Part shown: positions 3,728 to 31,958 of the stretch, piece by piece
Layout: each line of letters begins with the position of its first letter
Position numbering within the stretch: position 1 is the first letter of the stretch
Assembly (NCBI GenBank): GCA_029778235.1
Contig: JAKOQS010000007.1
Coordinates: forward strand, 1 to 49,743
Direction of reading: 5' to 3'
DNA: 49,743 nucleotides
From: Chloroflexota bacterium
GTDB lineage: Bacteria > Chloroflexota > Limnocylindria > Limnocylindrales > CSP1-4
Position numbers and translations under genes: made by a program
Notes under the pieces: model-generated
Seen by the model: the letters and a program-made list of their open reading frames with translations, nothing else
Told to the model about the DNA's origin: nothing
The model's database searches: none

Positions 3728-4155
3728 ACTCGAAGACCTACACGCTCAAGGGGAGCGAGATCGAGCGACGCTGGTACGTCGTCGATGCGACGGACGAGAC
3801 GCTCGGCCGCCTCGCGTCCCGCGTTGCGCGCGTCCTCGAGGGCAAGCACAAGCCCACGTTCACGCCCAACCTCGACTCCGGCGACCACGTCATCATCGTG
3901 AACGCCGCGAAGGTGGCGGTCTCGCGCGACAAGCTCGAGTCCAAGCTCTACCGCCGCCACAGCGGATATCCGATGGGCTACAAGGAGGAGACGCTCGGCC
4001 ACCTCCTCGCCCGGCGACCCGAGGAGGTCATCCGGCGGGCGGTGAAGGGCATGCTCCAGCACAACAAGCTCGGCACGCAGCAGCTGCGCAAGCTCAAGGT
4101 GTATGCGGGTCCTGAGCATCCCCACGAAGCGCAGAAGCCCGAGCCGCTCGGCTGA
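3724..4155 (+). CDS. rplM: 50S ribosomal protein L13
   Basis: A 143-residue early-assembly protein of the 50S subunit. Recognisable segments are [21 protein letters not shown], then [20 protein letters not shown], and finally [10 protein letters not shown] with [18 protein letters not shown]. It is translationally coupled to truA by a 4-base overlap and followed by rpsI, its constant partner. Confidence 0.98.
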
Positions 4156-4172
4156 TCAGGAGCAACGCACAG

Positions 4173-20424: not shown

Positions 20425-21413
20425 GCAGCCAGGTCCACGTCGATCCGGCCGCCGTCCGGCGGGCGCTCCGCGAGTCCGGGACGCATGCGCGGAGGTCGCT
20501 CTCCCAGAACTTCCTGGTGGACGTCGACGCCCTCGAGGCGATCGTCCGCGAGGCGGCACCCGCGCCCGGCCGCCGTGTCCTCGAGGTGGGGCCGGGGCTC
20601 GGCGTCCTGACCGGCGCTCTCGTCGACGCCGGCGCGGCCGTCGTGGCCGTCGAGCTCGACCCGGCGCTCGCACGGCGCCTTCGCGGCGCGCTCGCAGGCG
20701 CGATCGCCCGCGGCGAGCAGGACCCCGCGGCGCCGCGGACCCTGCGGCTCGTCGAGGGGAACGTCCTGGACGTCGACGTGGCCGGCCTGGTCTCGCCGCC
20801 GTACGACGTCGTGGCCAACCTCCCGTACCACATCACAAGCCCGGTCCTGCATCTCCTTCTCGGCGGGTCGCCGCGCCCGGAGCGATGCGTCCTGATGGTC
20901 CAGCGCGAGGTCGCGGAACGGGTCGCCGCGCCGCCGGGTCGCATGAGCTACCTCTCGGTCTTCGTGCAGTACCACGCGGGAGCGCGCGTGGCCCTGATCG
21001 TGCCGCCGGCGTCGTTCGAGCCCGCCCCGTCCGTGGACTCGGCGGTCCTGGTGCTCGACGTCCGGCCCGCGGACGACCCGCGCAGGCTCGATGCGGCTGC
21101 GGAGGACGACCTCTGGCGCCTCGTGCAGGCCGCGTTCCGCGAGCGGCGCAAGATGATCCACAACGTGCTCGCACGCCAGCTGCCGCTGCCCGCGGACCGC
21201 GTGGCCGCGGCGCTGGCGCAGGCCGGCATCGCCGCCGACCGGCGGCCGCAGACGCTCTCGGTGGACGAGTGGCTGGCGTTGCGCGCCGCGCTCGGGCCCC
21301 TTGCCCAGGACCGCCGCGGGAGGCGCGCGGGCGATCCACCGGCCGAACCGGAGCCGGACGAGCGGGGCGGCCCCGACCCGGCCGGCGACGCGGGGGAGTG
21401 GAGCGCCCGATGA
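20421..21413 (+). CDS. rsmA: 16S rRNA (A1518/A1519) dimethyltransferase
   Basis: Dimethylates two adjacent adenosines in the 3' hairpin of 16S rRNA during late 30S assembly (KsgA). SAM motif I is EVGPGLGVLTGALVDAGA, the catalytic NLPYHITSPVLH motif IV is intact, and SLSQNFLVD marks the N terminus. It has 330 residues with a charged tail after residue 295. ATGA overlaps on both sides link it to tsaD and ispE. Confidence 0.96.
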   Translation: MSSQVHVDPAAVRRALRESGTHARRSLSQNFLVDVDALEAIVREAAPAPGRRVLEVGPGLGVLTGALVDAGAAVVAVELDPALARRLRGALAGAIARGEQDPAAPRTLRLVEGNVLDVDVAGLVSPPYDVVANLPYHITSPVLHLLLGGSPRPERCVLMVQREVAERVAAPPGRMSYLSVFVQYHAGARVALIVPPASFEPAPSVDSAVLVLDVRPADDPRRLDAAAEDDLWRLVQAAFRERRKMIHNVLARQLPLPADRVAAALAQAGIAADRRPQTLSVDEWLALRAALGPLAQDRRGRRAGDPPAEPEPDERGGPDPAGDAGEWSAR

Positions 21414-28423: not shown

Positions 28424-28441
28424 CGCGACGCCCGCGTCGCG
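28424..28441 (+). promoter_or_regulatory. Second inverted repeat CGCGACG-cccg-CGTCGCG
   Basis: A perfect 7-base-arm inverted repeat 43 bases before the HTH-nuclease-like gene. It may be an operator or a transcribed hairpin. It is made only of G and C plus one A/T pair per arm, so chance is more likely than for the neighbouring palindrome. Confidence 0.3.
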
Positions 28442-28471
28442 CGCGATGGTCGGCAGCGCATCCGCGAATCG

Positions 28472-28486
28472 GATGATCGCGCCATG
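28472..28486 (+). promoter_or_regulatory. Weak leaderless-type -10 (GATGAT) for the first HTH-nuclease-like gene
   Basis: GATGAT (28472-28477) is six bases before the ATG at 28484, the same geometry as the TANNNT promoters, and keeps the critical A2 and T6 positions. No Shine-Dalgarno sequence is visible. Confidence 0.35.
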
Positions 28487-29395
28487 GACGACGTGCGCCT
28501 GCGTCGGGCGATCCGAGCGATCCGACTCCATCGACGGCTCCGCCAGGTCGACCTCGCGCGGATCTCGGGCCTCAGCCAGGCGACGATCTCGGACGTCGAG
28601 CGCGGGCACGCGGGAACGCTGTCGCTTCGCTCGGTCCGTGCCATCGTGGCGGCGCTCGGCGCGGACGCGAGCGTCGAGATCCGCTGGCGGTCCGGTGACG
28701 TCGATCGGCTCCTCGATGAGCGCCATGCCGCGCTCGTCCGGGCGGCCGTCGATCTGCTCGTGCGGCGCGGCTGGCGCGTGGCCACCGAGGTCACCTACTC
28801 GCACTACGGGGAGCGCGGCGCATACGACGTGCTCGCTGTCCACGAAGTCGCGGGGCTTGCGCTTGCGGTCGAGGCGAAGACGCGCCTCGTGTCGCTGGAG
28901 GCGACACTCCGCAAGCTGGACGAGAAGGTCCGCCTCGCCCCGAAGGTAGCCGCCGATCGGTTCGCCATGCGGCCGCACTCCGCGATCCCCATGCTCGTAC
29001 TCCCCGAGGGGACTGCGTCGAGGCGGTCGGTGGCGATGCACGACGCGATCCTCCGCCGAGCCCTGCCGGTCCGCGGCGCGGCGGCACGGGCGTGGCTCGC
29101 CGCCCCGGACGCGACCGCTTCCGGGATCCTGCTCGTGGTGACGCCGAGCCGCACGGGCGGCACGGGCCCGGCGGGCGGGGCAGGCCGAGCCCGGCGGTCG
29201 GGGCGGGCGGGGCCCGGCGGCCTCGGCCTGGAGCGCCGACCCCCCGACCCCCGCGTATCAACCCTGGGACTGCGGGAAGTGTCGCCCGCCGGGAGGGCGT
29301 GGCCGATCGAGCACGGGCGTCGCCAAGTGGACCACCACCCGAGGCCCCCGGCTGATACGCGGTGGCCCGGCCCGGTCTCGCAGTCCGGGGAGTGA
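28484..29395 (+). CDS. XRE-family HTH fused to PD-(D/E)XK nuclease-like domain (copy 1)
   Basis: A 303-residue protein. Residues 4-62 form an HTH_3 domain (RQVDLARISGLSQATISDVERG). Residues 76-155 look like a PD-(D/E)XK fold: RLLDERHAALVRAAVDLLVRRGW, then HYGERGAYDVLAVH (Asp115) and LALAVEAKTRL (Glu130-x-Lys132), with Glu102 as a possible fourth residue. The last 80 residues are low-complexity Gly/Arg/Pro. A paralogue lies on the other side of glyS. No methylase or toxin is nearby. Whether it cuts DNA or acts as a regulator is unknown. Confidence 0.8.
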   Translation: MDDVRLRRAIRAIRLHRRLRQVDLARISGLSQATISDVERGHAGTLSLRSVRAIVAALGADASVEIRWRSGDVDRLLDERHAALVRAAVDLLVRRGWRVATEVTYSHYGERGAYDVLAVHEVAGLALAVEAKTRLVSLEATLRKLDEKVRLAPKVAADRFAMRPHSAIPMLVLPEGTASRRSVAMHDAILRRALPVRGAAARAWLAAPDATASGILLVVTPSRTGGTGPAGGAGRARRSGRAGPGGLGLERRPPDPRVSTLGLREVSPAGRAWPIEHGRRQVDHHPRPPADTRWPGPVSQSGE

Positions 29396-29405
29396 TGCGC
29401 GGTGG
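29251..29405 (+). repeat. TGATRCGCGG boxes at the end of copy 1
   Basis: TGATACGCGGTGG (29353-29365) and TGATGCGCGGTGG (29393-29405) are direct copies 40 bases apart. The inverted form CCGCGTATCA is at 29251-29260. A second pair, GGACTGCG (29267-29274) and CGCAGTCC (29379-29386), is also inverted. They lie in the 3' end of the HTH-nuclease-like gene, just before the glyS promoter. Confidence 0.6.
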
Positions 29406-29407
29406 GT

Positions 29408-29439
29408 CCCTGCTCGTCGCCCGCTGCAGCCGAGCAGGG
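29408..29439 (+). terminator. 9-bp hairpin after the first HTH-nuclease-like gene
   Basis: CCCTGCTCG pairs perfectly with CGAGCAGGG around a 14-base loop, 12 bases after the stop codon. The following glyS promoter element at 29475 fits a terminator here. No U-tract. Confidence 0.55.
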
Positions 29440-29471
29440 CGCCGCCTCACGCCGGGGCCGCACTCCCGCTC

Positions 29472-29480
29472 TGCTACCAT
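29472..29480 (+). promoter_or_regulatory. Extended -10 promoter (TGCTACCAT) of glyS
   Basis: TGC precedes TACCAT, the same extended -10 as at cdaA and at several minus-strand genes here. Transcription would start near 29487, leaving a leader of about 20-60 bases, too short for a T-box riboswitch. Confidence 0.5.
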
Positions 29481-29545
29481 CCGCGGGCACCCTCATCCCG
29501 CGAGCGGGCATGCCACGCCCGAGCGCCATCCGGAGCGTCACCCCT

Positions 29546-30985
29546 GTGAGCGATCCCGCCCCGACCCTTCCCCGGCACGCCCGCGACGTGCTGGACCCCA
29601 CCACCGACCCCGGTCCGGCCGTCGCCGAGCTGGACACCATCGTCGGCCTCTCCAAGCGCCGGGGGTTCATCTACCCGAGCTCGGAGATCTACGGCGGCAT
29701 CAACGCGGTCTGGGACTACGGCCCGCTCGGCGTCGAGCTGAAGAACAACGTCAAGCGCGCCTGGTGGAGGGCGATGGTCCAGGAGCGCGACGACATCGTC
29801 GGTCTCGACTCCGGGATCCTGATGGCGCCCCAGATCTGGATCACGTCGGGGCACGTCGCGGAGTTCAGCGACCCCCTCGTCGAGTGCCGCGACTGCCGCC
29901 GGCGGTATCGCCTCGACGAGCTCCCGGGCGCGGAGGACCTGGCCCAGTCGGACCTCCGGGACCCCGGCATCATCGAGCGCCTCGGCCTGCGCTGCCCGGC
30001 CGACGACGGCGAGCTGAGCCCGCCCCGCCGCTTCAACCTCATGTTCAAGACGTTCATGGGGCCCGTCGAGGAGGAGGCCGCCGAGATCTACCTGCGGCCG
30101 GAGACCGCCCAGGGGATCTACGTGAACTTCCGGAACGTGAAGGAGACCAGCCGGAAGAAGGTCCCCTTCGGGATCGCCCAGATCGGCAAGGCGTTCCGCA
30201 ACGAGATCAGCCCGGGCAACTTCGTCTTCCGGATGCGCGAGTTCGAGCAGATGGAGATGCAGTTCTTCGTCCACCCGGATCGCGCGGCGGAGCATTTCGA
30301 GGAGTGGCTCCCGCGCCGCCGGGCGTGGTACGAGGCCTACGGGGTCACCCCCGCCCGTCTCCGGACCCGCGAGCATGCGCCGGACGAGCTCGCCCACTAC
30401 GCGAAGAAGGCCGTGGACGTCGAGTACCGCTTCCCGTTCGGGTGGAAGGAGCTCGAGGGGATCCACAACCGCGGTGACTGGGACCTCGGCCGACACATGG
30501 AGGCCTCGGGCGAGAACCTGGAGTACTTCGATCCGGCGACCGAGGAGCACTTCATCCCCTGGATCGTCGAGACCTCTGCCGGCGCCGACCGCGCGGCCTT
30601 CACCTTCCTCCTCGACGCGTATCGGGAGGAGGAGGTCCGCGGCGAGAAGCGCGTCGTCCTGGGGCTGCACCCGGACCTCGCCCCATACAAGGTCGCGGTC
30701 CTGCCGCTCCTCAAGAAGCGTCCCGAGATCGTCGAGATGTGCCACCGCATCAAGTCCGACCTCCAGCGCGACGTGATGGCCGTCTACGACGACACGGCCG
30801 CGATCGGCAAGCTCTACCGGCGACAGGACGAGATCGGCACGCCGTGGTGCGTGACGGTCGACGTCGACTCGCTCGACGACGGCGCCGTGACCATCCGCGA
30901 TCGCGATGCGATGACGCAGGAGCGCGTGAGCGCCGACCGCGTGCGCGAGGTGATCGCCGACCGGATTCGCGCCGCGCGACCGTAG
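29546..30985 (+). CDS. glyS: Glycyl-tRNA synthetase, homodimeric class II type
   Basis: Charges tRNA-Gly. This is the alpha2 form found in archaea, eukaryotes and many Gram-positives, not the alpha2beta2 form. RRGFIYPSSEIYGGINAVWDYGPLG, LRPETAQGIYVNFRNV, motif 2 FRNEISPGNFVFRMREFEQME and HNRGDWDLGRHME are present, and the anticodon-binding domain ends the protein. From GTG at 29546 it has 479 residues. ATG at 29510 (491 residues) is possible; starts further up precede the likely promoter. Confidence 0.95.
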   Translation: MSDPAPTLPRHARDVLDPTTDPGPAVAELDTIVGLSKRRGFIYPSSEIYGGINAVWDYGPLGVELKNNVKRAWWRAMVQERDDIVGLDSGILMAPQIWITSGHVAEFSDPLVECRDCRRRYRLDELPGAEDLAQSDLRDPGIIERLGLRCPADDGELSPPRRFNLMFKTFMGPVEEEAAEIYLRPETAQGIYVNFRNVKETSRKKVPFGIAQIGKAFRNEISPGNFVFRMREFEQMEMQFFVHPDRAAEHFEEWLPRRRAWYEAYGVTPARLRTREHAPDELAHYAKKAVDVEYRFPFGWKELEGIHNRGDWDLGRHMEASGENLEYFDPATEEHFIPWIVETSAGADRAAFTFLLDAYREEEVRGEKRVVLGLHPDLAPYKVAVLPLLKKRPEIVEMCHRIKSDLQRDVMAVYDDTAAIGKLYRRQDEIGTPWCVTVDVDSLDDGAVTIRDRDAMTQERVSADRVREVIADRIRAARP

Positions 30986-31172
30986 CGGGCGCTCTCCGGC
31001 GAACGCGACCCCGGGCGGCTCTCCGCGATGCCGACCAGGGCGGCGCTACGGTGGGTCCGAAGCGGTTCAGGCGCCGCGCAGGCGAACAGCGCGCCGCTCC
31101 CGGGCCCCCGGGGTGAGTGCCGGTCGAGCCGCCGGTGTGCCCCGGTCGATGCGGCCGCGGCACGATCCGGGC

Positions 31173-31958
31173 GTGGACCAGAGGCGTGTGGGCCGGGCGT
31201 TGCGGGTGCTGAGGCGGGCGCGGCGTCTTCGCCAGGCTGACGTCGCCACGGCTGCCGGCGTCTCCCAGTCCACCGTCTCGCAGATCGAGCTGGGTCGCTG
31301 GGACGCGATGTCCATGCGGACGCTGTGCCGGGTGTTCGACGCGGTGGAGGCCGACATCGACATGGGCGTCCGCTACCGCGGCGGAGAGCTCGATCGCCTC
31401 CTCGACGAGCGGCACGCATCGACGGCATCCGCCATGTCGTCTCTCCTGTCGTCCCGCGGATGGACCGTCACGCCAGAGGTCAGCTTCAACCACTACGGGG
31501 ATCGTGGCTCGGTCGACCTCCTTGCCTTCCATCCACCGTCGCACGTGCTGCTCGTGGTCGAGGTGAAGTCGGAGATCGCCTCCACCGAGGAGACGCTGCG
31601 GCGCCTCGACGTCAAGGCACGTCTCGGACGAACGATCGCCGGTGGGAGGCTTGGCGTCGAGCCGGTCAGCGTCGTCCGCCTCCTTGCGATCCGCGCCTCT
31701 TCGGCGAACCGGGACCGAGTCGCGCGCCTGGACCCGCTGCTCGGTCCGGCCTTCCCCCTCCGCGGTGGCCGGCTCACCGGATGGCTCCGCGCGCCGACGC
31801 CCCTCGAGGGTCGGCTGGCCGCCGGCCTCATGTTCGTCCGGGATACCGGCCGGGCCGGTCGGAATGAAGGTCCGAGGCCGAGGCGGCGTGCGACCCGCGG
31901 CACAGATCCTGCCGGTCGAGCGTGGACCGGCTCGTGTTGGACGTCGCCGAGGGGGTGA
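31173..31958 (+). CDS. XRE-family HTH fused to PD-(D/E)XK nuclease-like domain (copy 2)
   Basis: A 261-residue paralogue of the protein at 28484. The HTH (RQADVATAAGVSQSTVSQIELG) occupies about residues 5-57. The nuclease-like domain repeats the shared blocks RLLDERHAS, SRGWTVTPEVSFNHYGDRGSVDLLAFH (catalytic-type Asp) and LLVVEVKSEIAS (Glu-x-Lys), then EETLRRLDVKARL. The tail is basic and low-complexity. GTG at 31173 aligns with the start of copy 1; the frame opens further up at 31113. It is the gene after glyS, on the same strand. Confidence 0.8.
   Translation: MDQRRVGRALRVLRRARRLRQADVATAAGVSQSTVSQIELGRWDAMSMRTLCRVFDAVEADIDMGVRYRGGELDRLLDERHASTASAMSSLLSSRGWTVTPEVSFNHYGDRGSVDLLAFHPPSHVLLVVEVKSEIASTEETLRRLDVKARLGRTIAGGRLGVEPVSVVRLLAIRASSANRDRVARLDPLLGPAFPLRGGRLTGWLRAPTPLEGRLAAGLMFVRDTGRAGRNEGPRPRRRATRGTDPAGRAWTGSCWTSPRG

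Follow-up and report, generated by a model that had tools for sequence, protein, structure and literature searches.

Two genes, here called A and B, in a 49,743-nucleotide stretch of a Chloroflexota genome (contig JAKOQS010000007.1; "the window" denotes this whole stretch) belong to a multi-copy family of solitary probable nucleases in which an XRE-type helix-turn-helix (HTH) domain is joined to a PD-(D/E)XK domain. From sequence comparison and structural models we consider it likely, with a probability of roughly 0.7, that the family is part of the competence (natural-transformation) regulon. A large unnamed nuclease family would in this way be newly tied to DNA uptake by its promoter, and the promoter box in question, which 28 of the 30 best comEA loci carry upstream of the gene, provides a promoter signature by which natural competence can be recognized in a group of uncultured Chloroflexota. 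With it, the regulon can be computed for related genomes, and one can ask directly whether competence couples to restriction or to the spread of selfish genes. The two genes are:

28484-29395, + strand: protein A, with an XRE HTH (residues ~6-62), a PD-(D/E)XK domain (residues ~72-222) and a C-terminal tail of low complexity (open reading frame (ORF) list, Pfam, BLASTP, AlphaFold)
31173-31958, + strand: protein B, 261 residues, with an XRE HTH and a PD-(D/E)XK domain (GTG start reassigned from 31113)

A and B are paralogues (105 identities over 273 positions, 38%, BLASTP E 4e-61). Pfam places an XRE-type HTH domain in each, and the blocks RLLDERHA, RGW, EV, HYG.RG, VE.K and E.TLR.LD.K.RL are common to both, just as a preliminary description of this DNA had claimed; the span it gave, 28484-31958, does cover A, glyS and B, with both reading frames where it had located them. 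Its HTH plus PD-(D/E)XK reading is upheld by fold and residues, the meaning that it saw in the position beside glyS is not, and the promoter box common to comEA, comF and yraN came as an added clue. All 63 aligned family members match HTH_31 (E up to 0.1), and the nuclease half of A and B matches no Pfam or NCBIfam model at its cut-off. The GTG at 31113, at which the ORF list starts B, is probably too early, and we favour the GTG at 31173 because of the family alignment and the promoter spacing.

A promoter box upstream of the family genes

Most copies of the family are preceded by tandem 11-bp repeats (consensus GATAAGCGGCC) followed by a -10 element. Counting of 9-mers upstream of 108 copies returned words such as ATAAGCGGC, which occurs in nine of these upstream regions and is absent from 359 kb of surrounding DNA, and an expectation-maximization (EM) model of the regions upstream of copies consists of two 11-bp repeats with the consensus GATAAGCGGCCGATAAGCGGCC. 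When the model was trained on one half of the data, 45-48 of 54 upstream regions were recovered compared to 7-21 of 397 controls (boxes were called at score thresholds of 8, 12 and 16). The periodicity is also visible independently of any model: sequence identity at a lag of 11 is 0.369 upstream of copies and 0.286 in the background, where lag identity shows the codon period of 3 alone (0.33-0.35). Scores above 16 occur 101 times in 534 kb, and 80 of these matches are on the strand of a copy and no more than 140 bp upstream of it. Another 17 belong to longer arrays that sit slightly farther upstream, and of the last four, one is the box of a divergent comF.

The position of the -10 element is equally regular. 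An A at -11 together with a T at -7 of the start codon is found in all 48 copies in register and in 58 of the 89 copies that start with ATG or GTG, versus 189 of 11528 control ATG/GTG codons (1.6%). Because the element falls within the last 12 bases before the start, we infer that most family mRNAs are leaderless. In the window, B has the promoter element of the competence genes (16.2 with the position weight matrix, PWM), and A itself does not (5.1):

31108-31157, + strand: 11-bp direct-repeat array (box) of B, PWM score 16.2 at -65, with about four degenerate repeats in register by eye
31161-31166, + strand: CACGAT, the -10-like element of B, which has an A at -11 and a T at -7
28441-28468, + strand: degenerate box remnant of A in the usual register (-43), PWM score 5.1, below the thresholds
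28472-28477, + strand: GATGAT, the -10-like element of A, which has an A at -11 and a T at -7 relative to the start codon

A further PWM match at window position 21394 was taken as a chance hit, as it overlaps the start codon of a gene, presumably ispE. On the 3' side, the family copy of locus L187 (G318:C68) is closely followed by 70-bp repeats in tandem (3950-4165), which contain an imperfect palindrome around CCCGGGCGAT, and similar motifs follow the copies in L042 and L220. We rejected the 3' repeat as a signal of the family: downstream 9-mers present in at least six flanks are enriched at most 11.4-fold, compared to 101.8-fold upstream.

The same box precedes competence genes

The exact pattern RTAAGYN5RTAAGY has 92 matches in 17 genomes, compared to 6 for the reversed pattern. 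Of these sites, 70 instances in the fetched stretches had a downstream open frame and were tabulated; 14 precede a family member, which underestimates the family share because the fetched stretches include few of the sites adjoining known copies. The single exact match in the window's genome, G000 (contig C173), has no convincing gene tied to it.

By Pfam domains, the box also precedes comEA (SLBB + HHH_3), comF (Pribosyltran), yraN (UPF0102) and comM (Mg_chelatase + ChlI), where the com names are those that we assume for proteins with these domains. We scored the 30 best loci each of comEA, comF and yraN (87, 90 and 96 genomes match, respectively) with a matrix trained on family upstream regions alone. 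For comEA, 28 of 30 loci exceed a score of 12 upstream on the gene strand, with none on the other strand and none downstream; in the two exceptions, the sequence before the gene is limited to 366 and 35 bp. The corresponding figure for comF is 22 of 30, with one reverse-strand match in G195, a genome in which a family copy is divergent to comF. For yraN, 18 of 30 loci score upstream and none on the other strand or downstream. The glyS control gave 0 of 28 upstream (the window's own locus and the truncated one of G318 were left out of 30), and its single downstream match is the family copy of G319. In the one locus scanned, comEA is followed by comEC (PF03772).

The element behind the box provides additional insight. 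TAnnnT is found exactly 5 bp after the box in 28/28 comEA sites (background 0.0006; L302 and L316 were left out of this and of the leaderless test below), and nAnnnT stands at the same offset in 67/98 family copies (background 0.021). Therefore, comEA and the family genes have the same promoter geometry. A matrix built from the comEA sites scores above 8 in 56 of 108 family upstream regions versus 1 of 397 controls, although it is not fully independent, its sites having been picked by the family matrix. In f3, a taxonomic family of the same class, 9 of 14 comEA loci exceed 12 (two of 16 rows, L409 and L411, are frame-broken or partial and were left out).

The shared promoter suggests that the family proteins work during DNA uptake. 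We propose that a competence regulator binds the 11-bp TAAGC repeats and would thereby switch on DNA uptake and nuclease together. The HTH would deliver the nuclease to particular DNA, leading to cleavage during transformation, by which incoming DNA could be restricted or processed, or recombination promoted at chromosomal sites.

A number of observations weigh against this assignment. The in-sample EM model marks 98/108 family upstream regions and 2/199 controls above 8, yet such counts alone prove little, because EM trained on background DNA also converged (143/289 other background pieces, 18/108 family upstream regions). Boxes above 12 are missing from 12/30 yraN and 8/30 comF upstream regions, and the leaderless-start rule of the family holds for 0/28 comEA genes. 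In the window's own genus, g1, the box has drifted: B scores 16.2, A 5.1 and the other copies 8.6-14.0, and four g1 genomes contain 1, 0, 0 and 1 exact matches. The g1 comEA candidates score 15.0 and 9.1 (G000), 7.7 (G058), 14.6 (G318) and 11.5 (G317), and near yraN, G058 (13.6) is the sole genome with a score above 12 at the expected position. Finally, the box also stands before RhuM/Fic-like, BrnT, nucleotidyltransferase, UvrD-type helicase and peptidase S9 genes, which may be further accessory members or may indicate a regulon wider than competence. Could the regulon instead be one of DNA damage or general stress, with the nucleases acting in repair? The UvrD-type helicase gene would fit, as would EndoMS and Hjc among the fold matches given below. 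We nevertheless regard this as quite unlikely, given that the most consistent holder of the box is comEA, followed by comEC.

Several single loci deserve mention. In L270 (G313:C88), a box is followed by a distant family member and then comF, both in one orientation, with a T2SSF pilus-assembly-type gene nearby, an arrangement that looks like one competence operon. L287 (G314:C173:1-5791) has three box sites in 5.8 kb, each of which precedes an accessory gene (two for nucleotidyltransferase-domain proteins, one RhuM/Fic-like), and in L237 (G179:C71) a BrnT-type toxin gene lies directly downstream of an exact pattern match. L264 (G315:C272) and L228 (G309:C23) encode box-preceded proteins of about 385 residues that have no Pfam match and are alike by eye; they are possible new competence components.

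Which protein reads the box

In G031, a genome that is 95% complete, no family member was detected (33 of its 70 candidates were scored in the family-wide profile search), and a box still stands in front of comEA (22.4), with another upstream of yraN (19.4). In G292, which likewise lacks a family match, the comEA box scores 12.8. Because the box persists in these two genomes, another protein most likely reads the repeats, and the family HTH is probably not the master regulator of the box.

These data bear on the idea that A and B are self-regulating restriction or abortive-infection genes, in which the HTH is a controller-type domain acting on the repeats of its own promoter, i.e. a restriction-modification (R-M) controller fused to a nuclease. 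There is a precedent for such repeats in HsdC of Mycoplasma, a controller that is reported to bind (GTGTTAN5)2, an 11-bp direct repeat overlapping the promoter (PMC5282649), and the high turnover and multiple copies of the family would be in keeping with it. The repeats of G031 argue in the opposite direction, and so do the neighbours. The preliminary description had seen no methylase, toxin or antitoxin partner, and this is borne out among 10 representative recurrent neighbours (three without a Pfam match) as well as among the four window neighbours scanned, namely recO, PPOX, glyS and a Pyr_redox_2/Fer4_20 protein. No partner gene common to the copies emerged either: the largest neighbour cluster comprises at most 7 loci, frames overlapping the gene itself excepted, in a clustering in which many loci have only 1.5 kb of flank. 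We therefore consider a self-regulating restriction gene doubtful.

Fold and catalytic residues

The residues discussed in this section lie at the following positions, assigned from the sequence and an alignment of 63 rows:

28826-28879, + strand: catalytic set of A, D115 (28826-28828), E130 (28871-28873) and K132 (28877-28879)
31413-31568, + strand: invariant residues of B, H81 (31413-31415), E102 (31476-31478), D115 (31515-31517), E130 (31560-31562) and K132 (31566-31568)

The AlphaFold model of B (predicted local distance difference test score, pLDDT, 83.9) and that of the A domain alone (pLDDT 87.8) both show the order helix, three strands, helix, strand, so that the alpha-beta-beta-beta-alpha-beta core anticipated for the two proteins is predicted in each. 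The domain was searched alone, since a fold search with the whole protein was mostly filled by HTH chains. Its best fold match is XisH (Z 10.0, r.m.s.d. 3.0 over 111-112 residues), followed by EndoMS (Z 9.3), AF1548 (9.2), Upx (9.0) and archaeal Hjc (8.1), all of which we take to be PD-(D/E)XK proteins. Of 1000 aligned chains, 13 reach Z 8; values below 8 can reflect a common arrangement. Foldseek ranks R2 retrotransposon endonucleases at the top (E 1.7e-4), and the domain profile finds Upx as its sole match below E 0.7 among PDB sequences (E 6.6e-4). Weak Pfam matches of single members among the 63 are to YhcG_C (7 members, best E 0.029), MmcB-like (5, 0.0038), HSDR_N_2 (4, 0.0034) and UPF0102/PF02021 (3, 0.0026).

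R14, H81, E102, G112, D115, E130 and K132 are unchanged in all 63 aligned relatives. This alignment excludes three spurious short domains and the partial copies L054, L069, L025 and L070, and contains the window rows in place of L001 and L003. The preliminary description had expected Asp115, Glu130 and Lys132 to be conserved, as they are, and had left the choice between a nuclease and a catalytically silent regulator; the PD-(D/E)XK reading stands, and a silent protein is unlikely for A and B because these three residues are invariant. We conclude that A and B are predicted solitary nucleases that are probably catalytically active.

A distant HTH subfamily in the same genomes lacks the ExK lysine (for example ELQSE, VEVWD or ECWNT in its place), and its nucleases are possibly inactive; members are G000:C176, G000:C194:631, L186 and L194-L197, and some are preceded by the box. 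This subfamily and the conserved HTH would suit lineage-expanded transcription factors whose nuclease domain merely binds DNA. For A, B and their close relatives we find this explanation very unlikely, as it leaves the invariance of H81, E102, D115, E130 and K132 unaccounted for.

Turnover of the copies and the glyS neighbourhood

In the window's taxonomic family, 99 of 107 Chloroflexota genomes match the profile at E 1e-5, with up to 18 matches each, counts that include the distant subfamily. Across a sample of 301 genomes of the phylum, the profile matches 23, namely 18 of the 20 from the window's family, three from f3, and two outside both families with weak scores (E 2.4e-5 and 4.0e-4). 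Plasmid and phage collections contain no family match, and a mobile-element origin by similarity was rejected on this basis. The gene between the two window copies is the following:

29402-30985, + strand: glyS, glycine--tRNA ligase (NCBIfam; ORF limits, with the true start not fixed)

The preliminary description had named it correctly (E 1.9e-188) and had wondered whether the pair stays with it. glyS was found in 100 of the 107 genomes and its surroundings were read in 35, some of them ended by contig ends. A copy adjoins glyS in only 4 of the 35: on both sides in G000, downstream in G243 and G319 (in the latter in two frames), and upstream in G318. Two copies occur in the window's genome alone, and we thus attach no meaning to the A-glyS-B bracket. 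In the congeners G317, G058 and G318, the glyS match and gltD are separated by no more than about 40-140 bp with no copy between, and the recO/PPOX-glyS interval has no copy in G058 and G317.

At another site, the copies of G000, G317 and G058 are 70-72% identical at the DNA level, compared to about 83-86% for their flanks. G318 has no copy there; it carries a similar copy (72% to the G000 one) elsewhere, at a site empty in the other three. Since occupancy differs at syntenic sites and the copies diverge beyond their flanks, the copies are gained and lost and evolve fast. In each of the 18 pairs that we compared, the ratio of nonsynonymous to synonymous substitution rates (dN/dS) lies between 0.06 and 0.42 (some pairs have a sequence in common, and in many dS is near 1); these values indicate purifying selection and argue for function. 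As the copies are many, dispersed, gained and lost, the family would form an accessory rather than an essential layer of competence.

The occupied and empty intergenic sites between congeners are allele pairs of the homing type, and we asked whether the copies could be selfish endonucleases of a homing-like kind, for which competence would be the window of transmission. Up to 18 competence-wired genes per genome would then cut the empty recipient allele upon import of gene-carrying donor DNA and be copied in by transformation, a homing system with natural competence as its mating event. The dispersal of the copies, the apparent split of several into two frames (if not due to errors in assembly), the R2 endonucleases at the top of the Foldseek ranking and the timing implied by the competence box are all compatible with this. 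In the tree, A clusters with the G318 copy that occupies the corresponding site (support 100/83), and B falls into a four-member clade with the G243 copy, likewise downstream of glyS (95/93), a pattern that descent with loss explains equally well. The intergenic DNA is too diverged for an insertion junction to be placed, and no boundary or target site could be fixed; in addition, dN/dS stays below 0.5 in 18/18 pairs. On balance a selfish origin appears unlikely, and we prefer an accessory competence nuclease.

Comparison with known systems

Our searches of open-licence literature, a body that lacks most subscription papers, returned no paper describing such a regulon or family in its title or the start of its abstract. 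Free-standing homing endonuclease genes resemble the family in being solitary genes for a nuclease, with intergenic sites that may be occupied or empty; the family differs in combining PD-(D/E)XK with an XRE HTH and in that no precise insertion point was fixed. R-M controllers share with it a controller-type DNA-binding protein, direct repeats with an 11-bp period (HsdC) and a leaderless mRNA (C.PvuII) (PMC5282649, PMC2997769). The family departs from these systems in its fusion of HTH and nuclease, in the lack of any methylase among the scanned neighbours and in repeats that it has in common with competence genes. The passages of PMC2701414 that we consulted describe no fusion of this kind.

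The PD-(D/E)XK superfamily, here XisH, EndoMS/NucS, AF1548, Hjc, Upx and the R2 endonuclease, has in common with the family the predicted core and the D...ExK set, at Z 8-10. What distinguishes the family is the N-terminal XRE HTH, along with a nuclease half outside the Pfam and NCBIfam models at cut-off. YraN/UPF0102 (PF02021), in turn, is present with one match per genome in 96 of 107 genomes and had no HTH in two box-bearing examples scanned, unlike the multi-copy family; the two are nevertheless linked by the same box, which YraN carries in 18/30 loci, and by the weak PF02021 matches of 3/63 family members (best E 0.0026).

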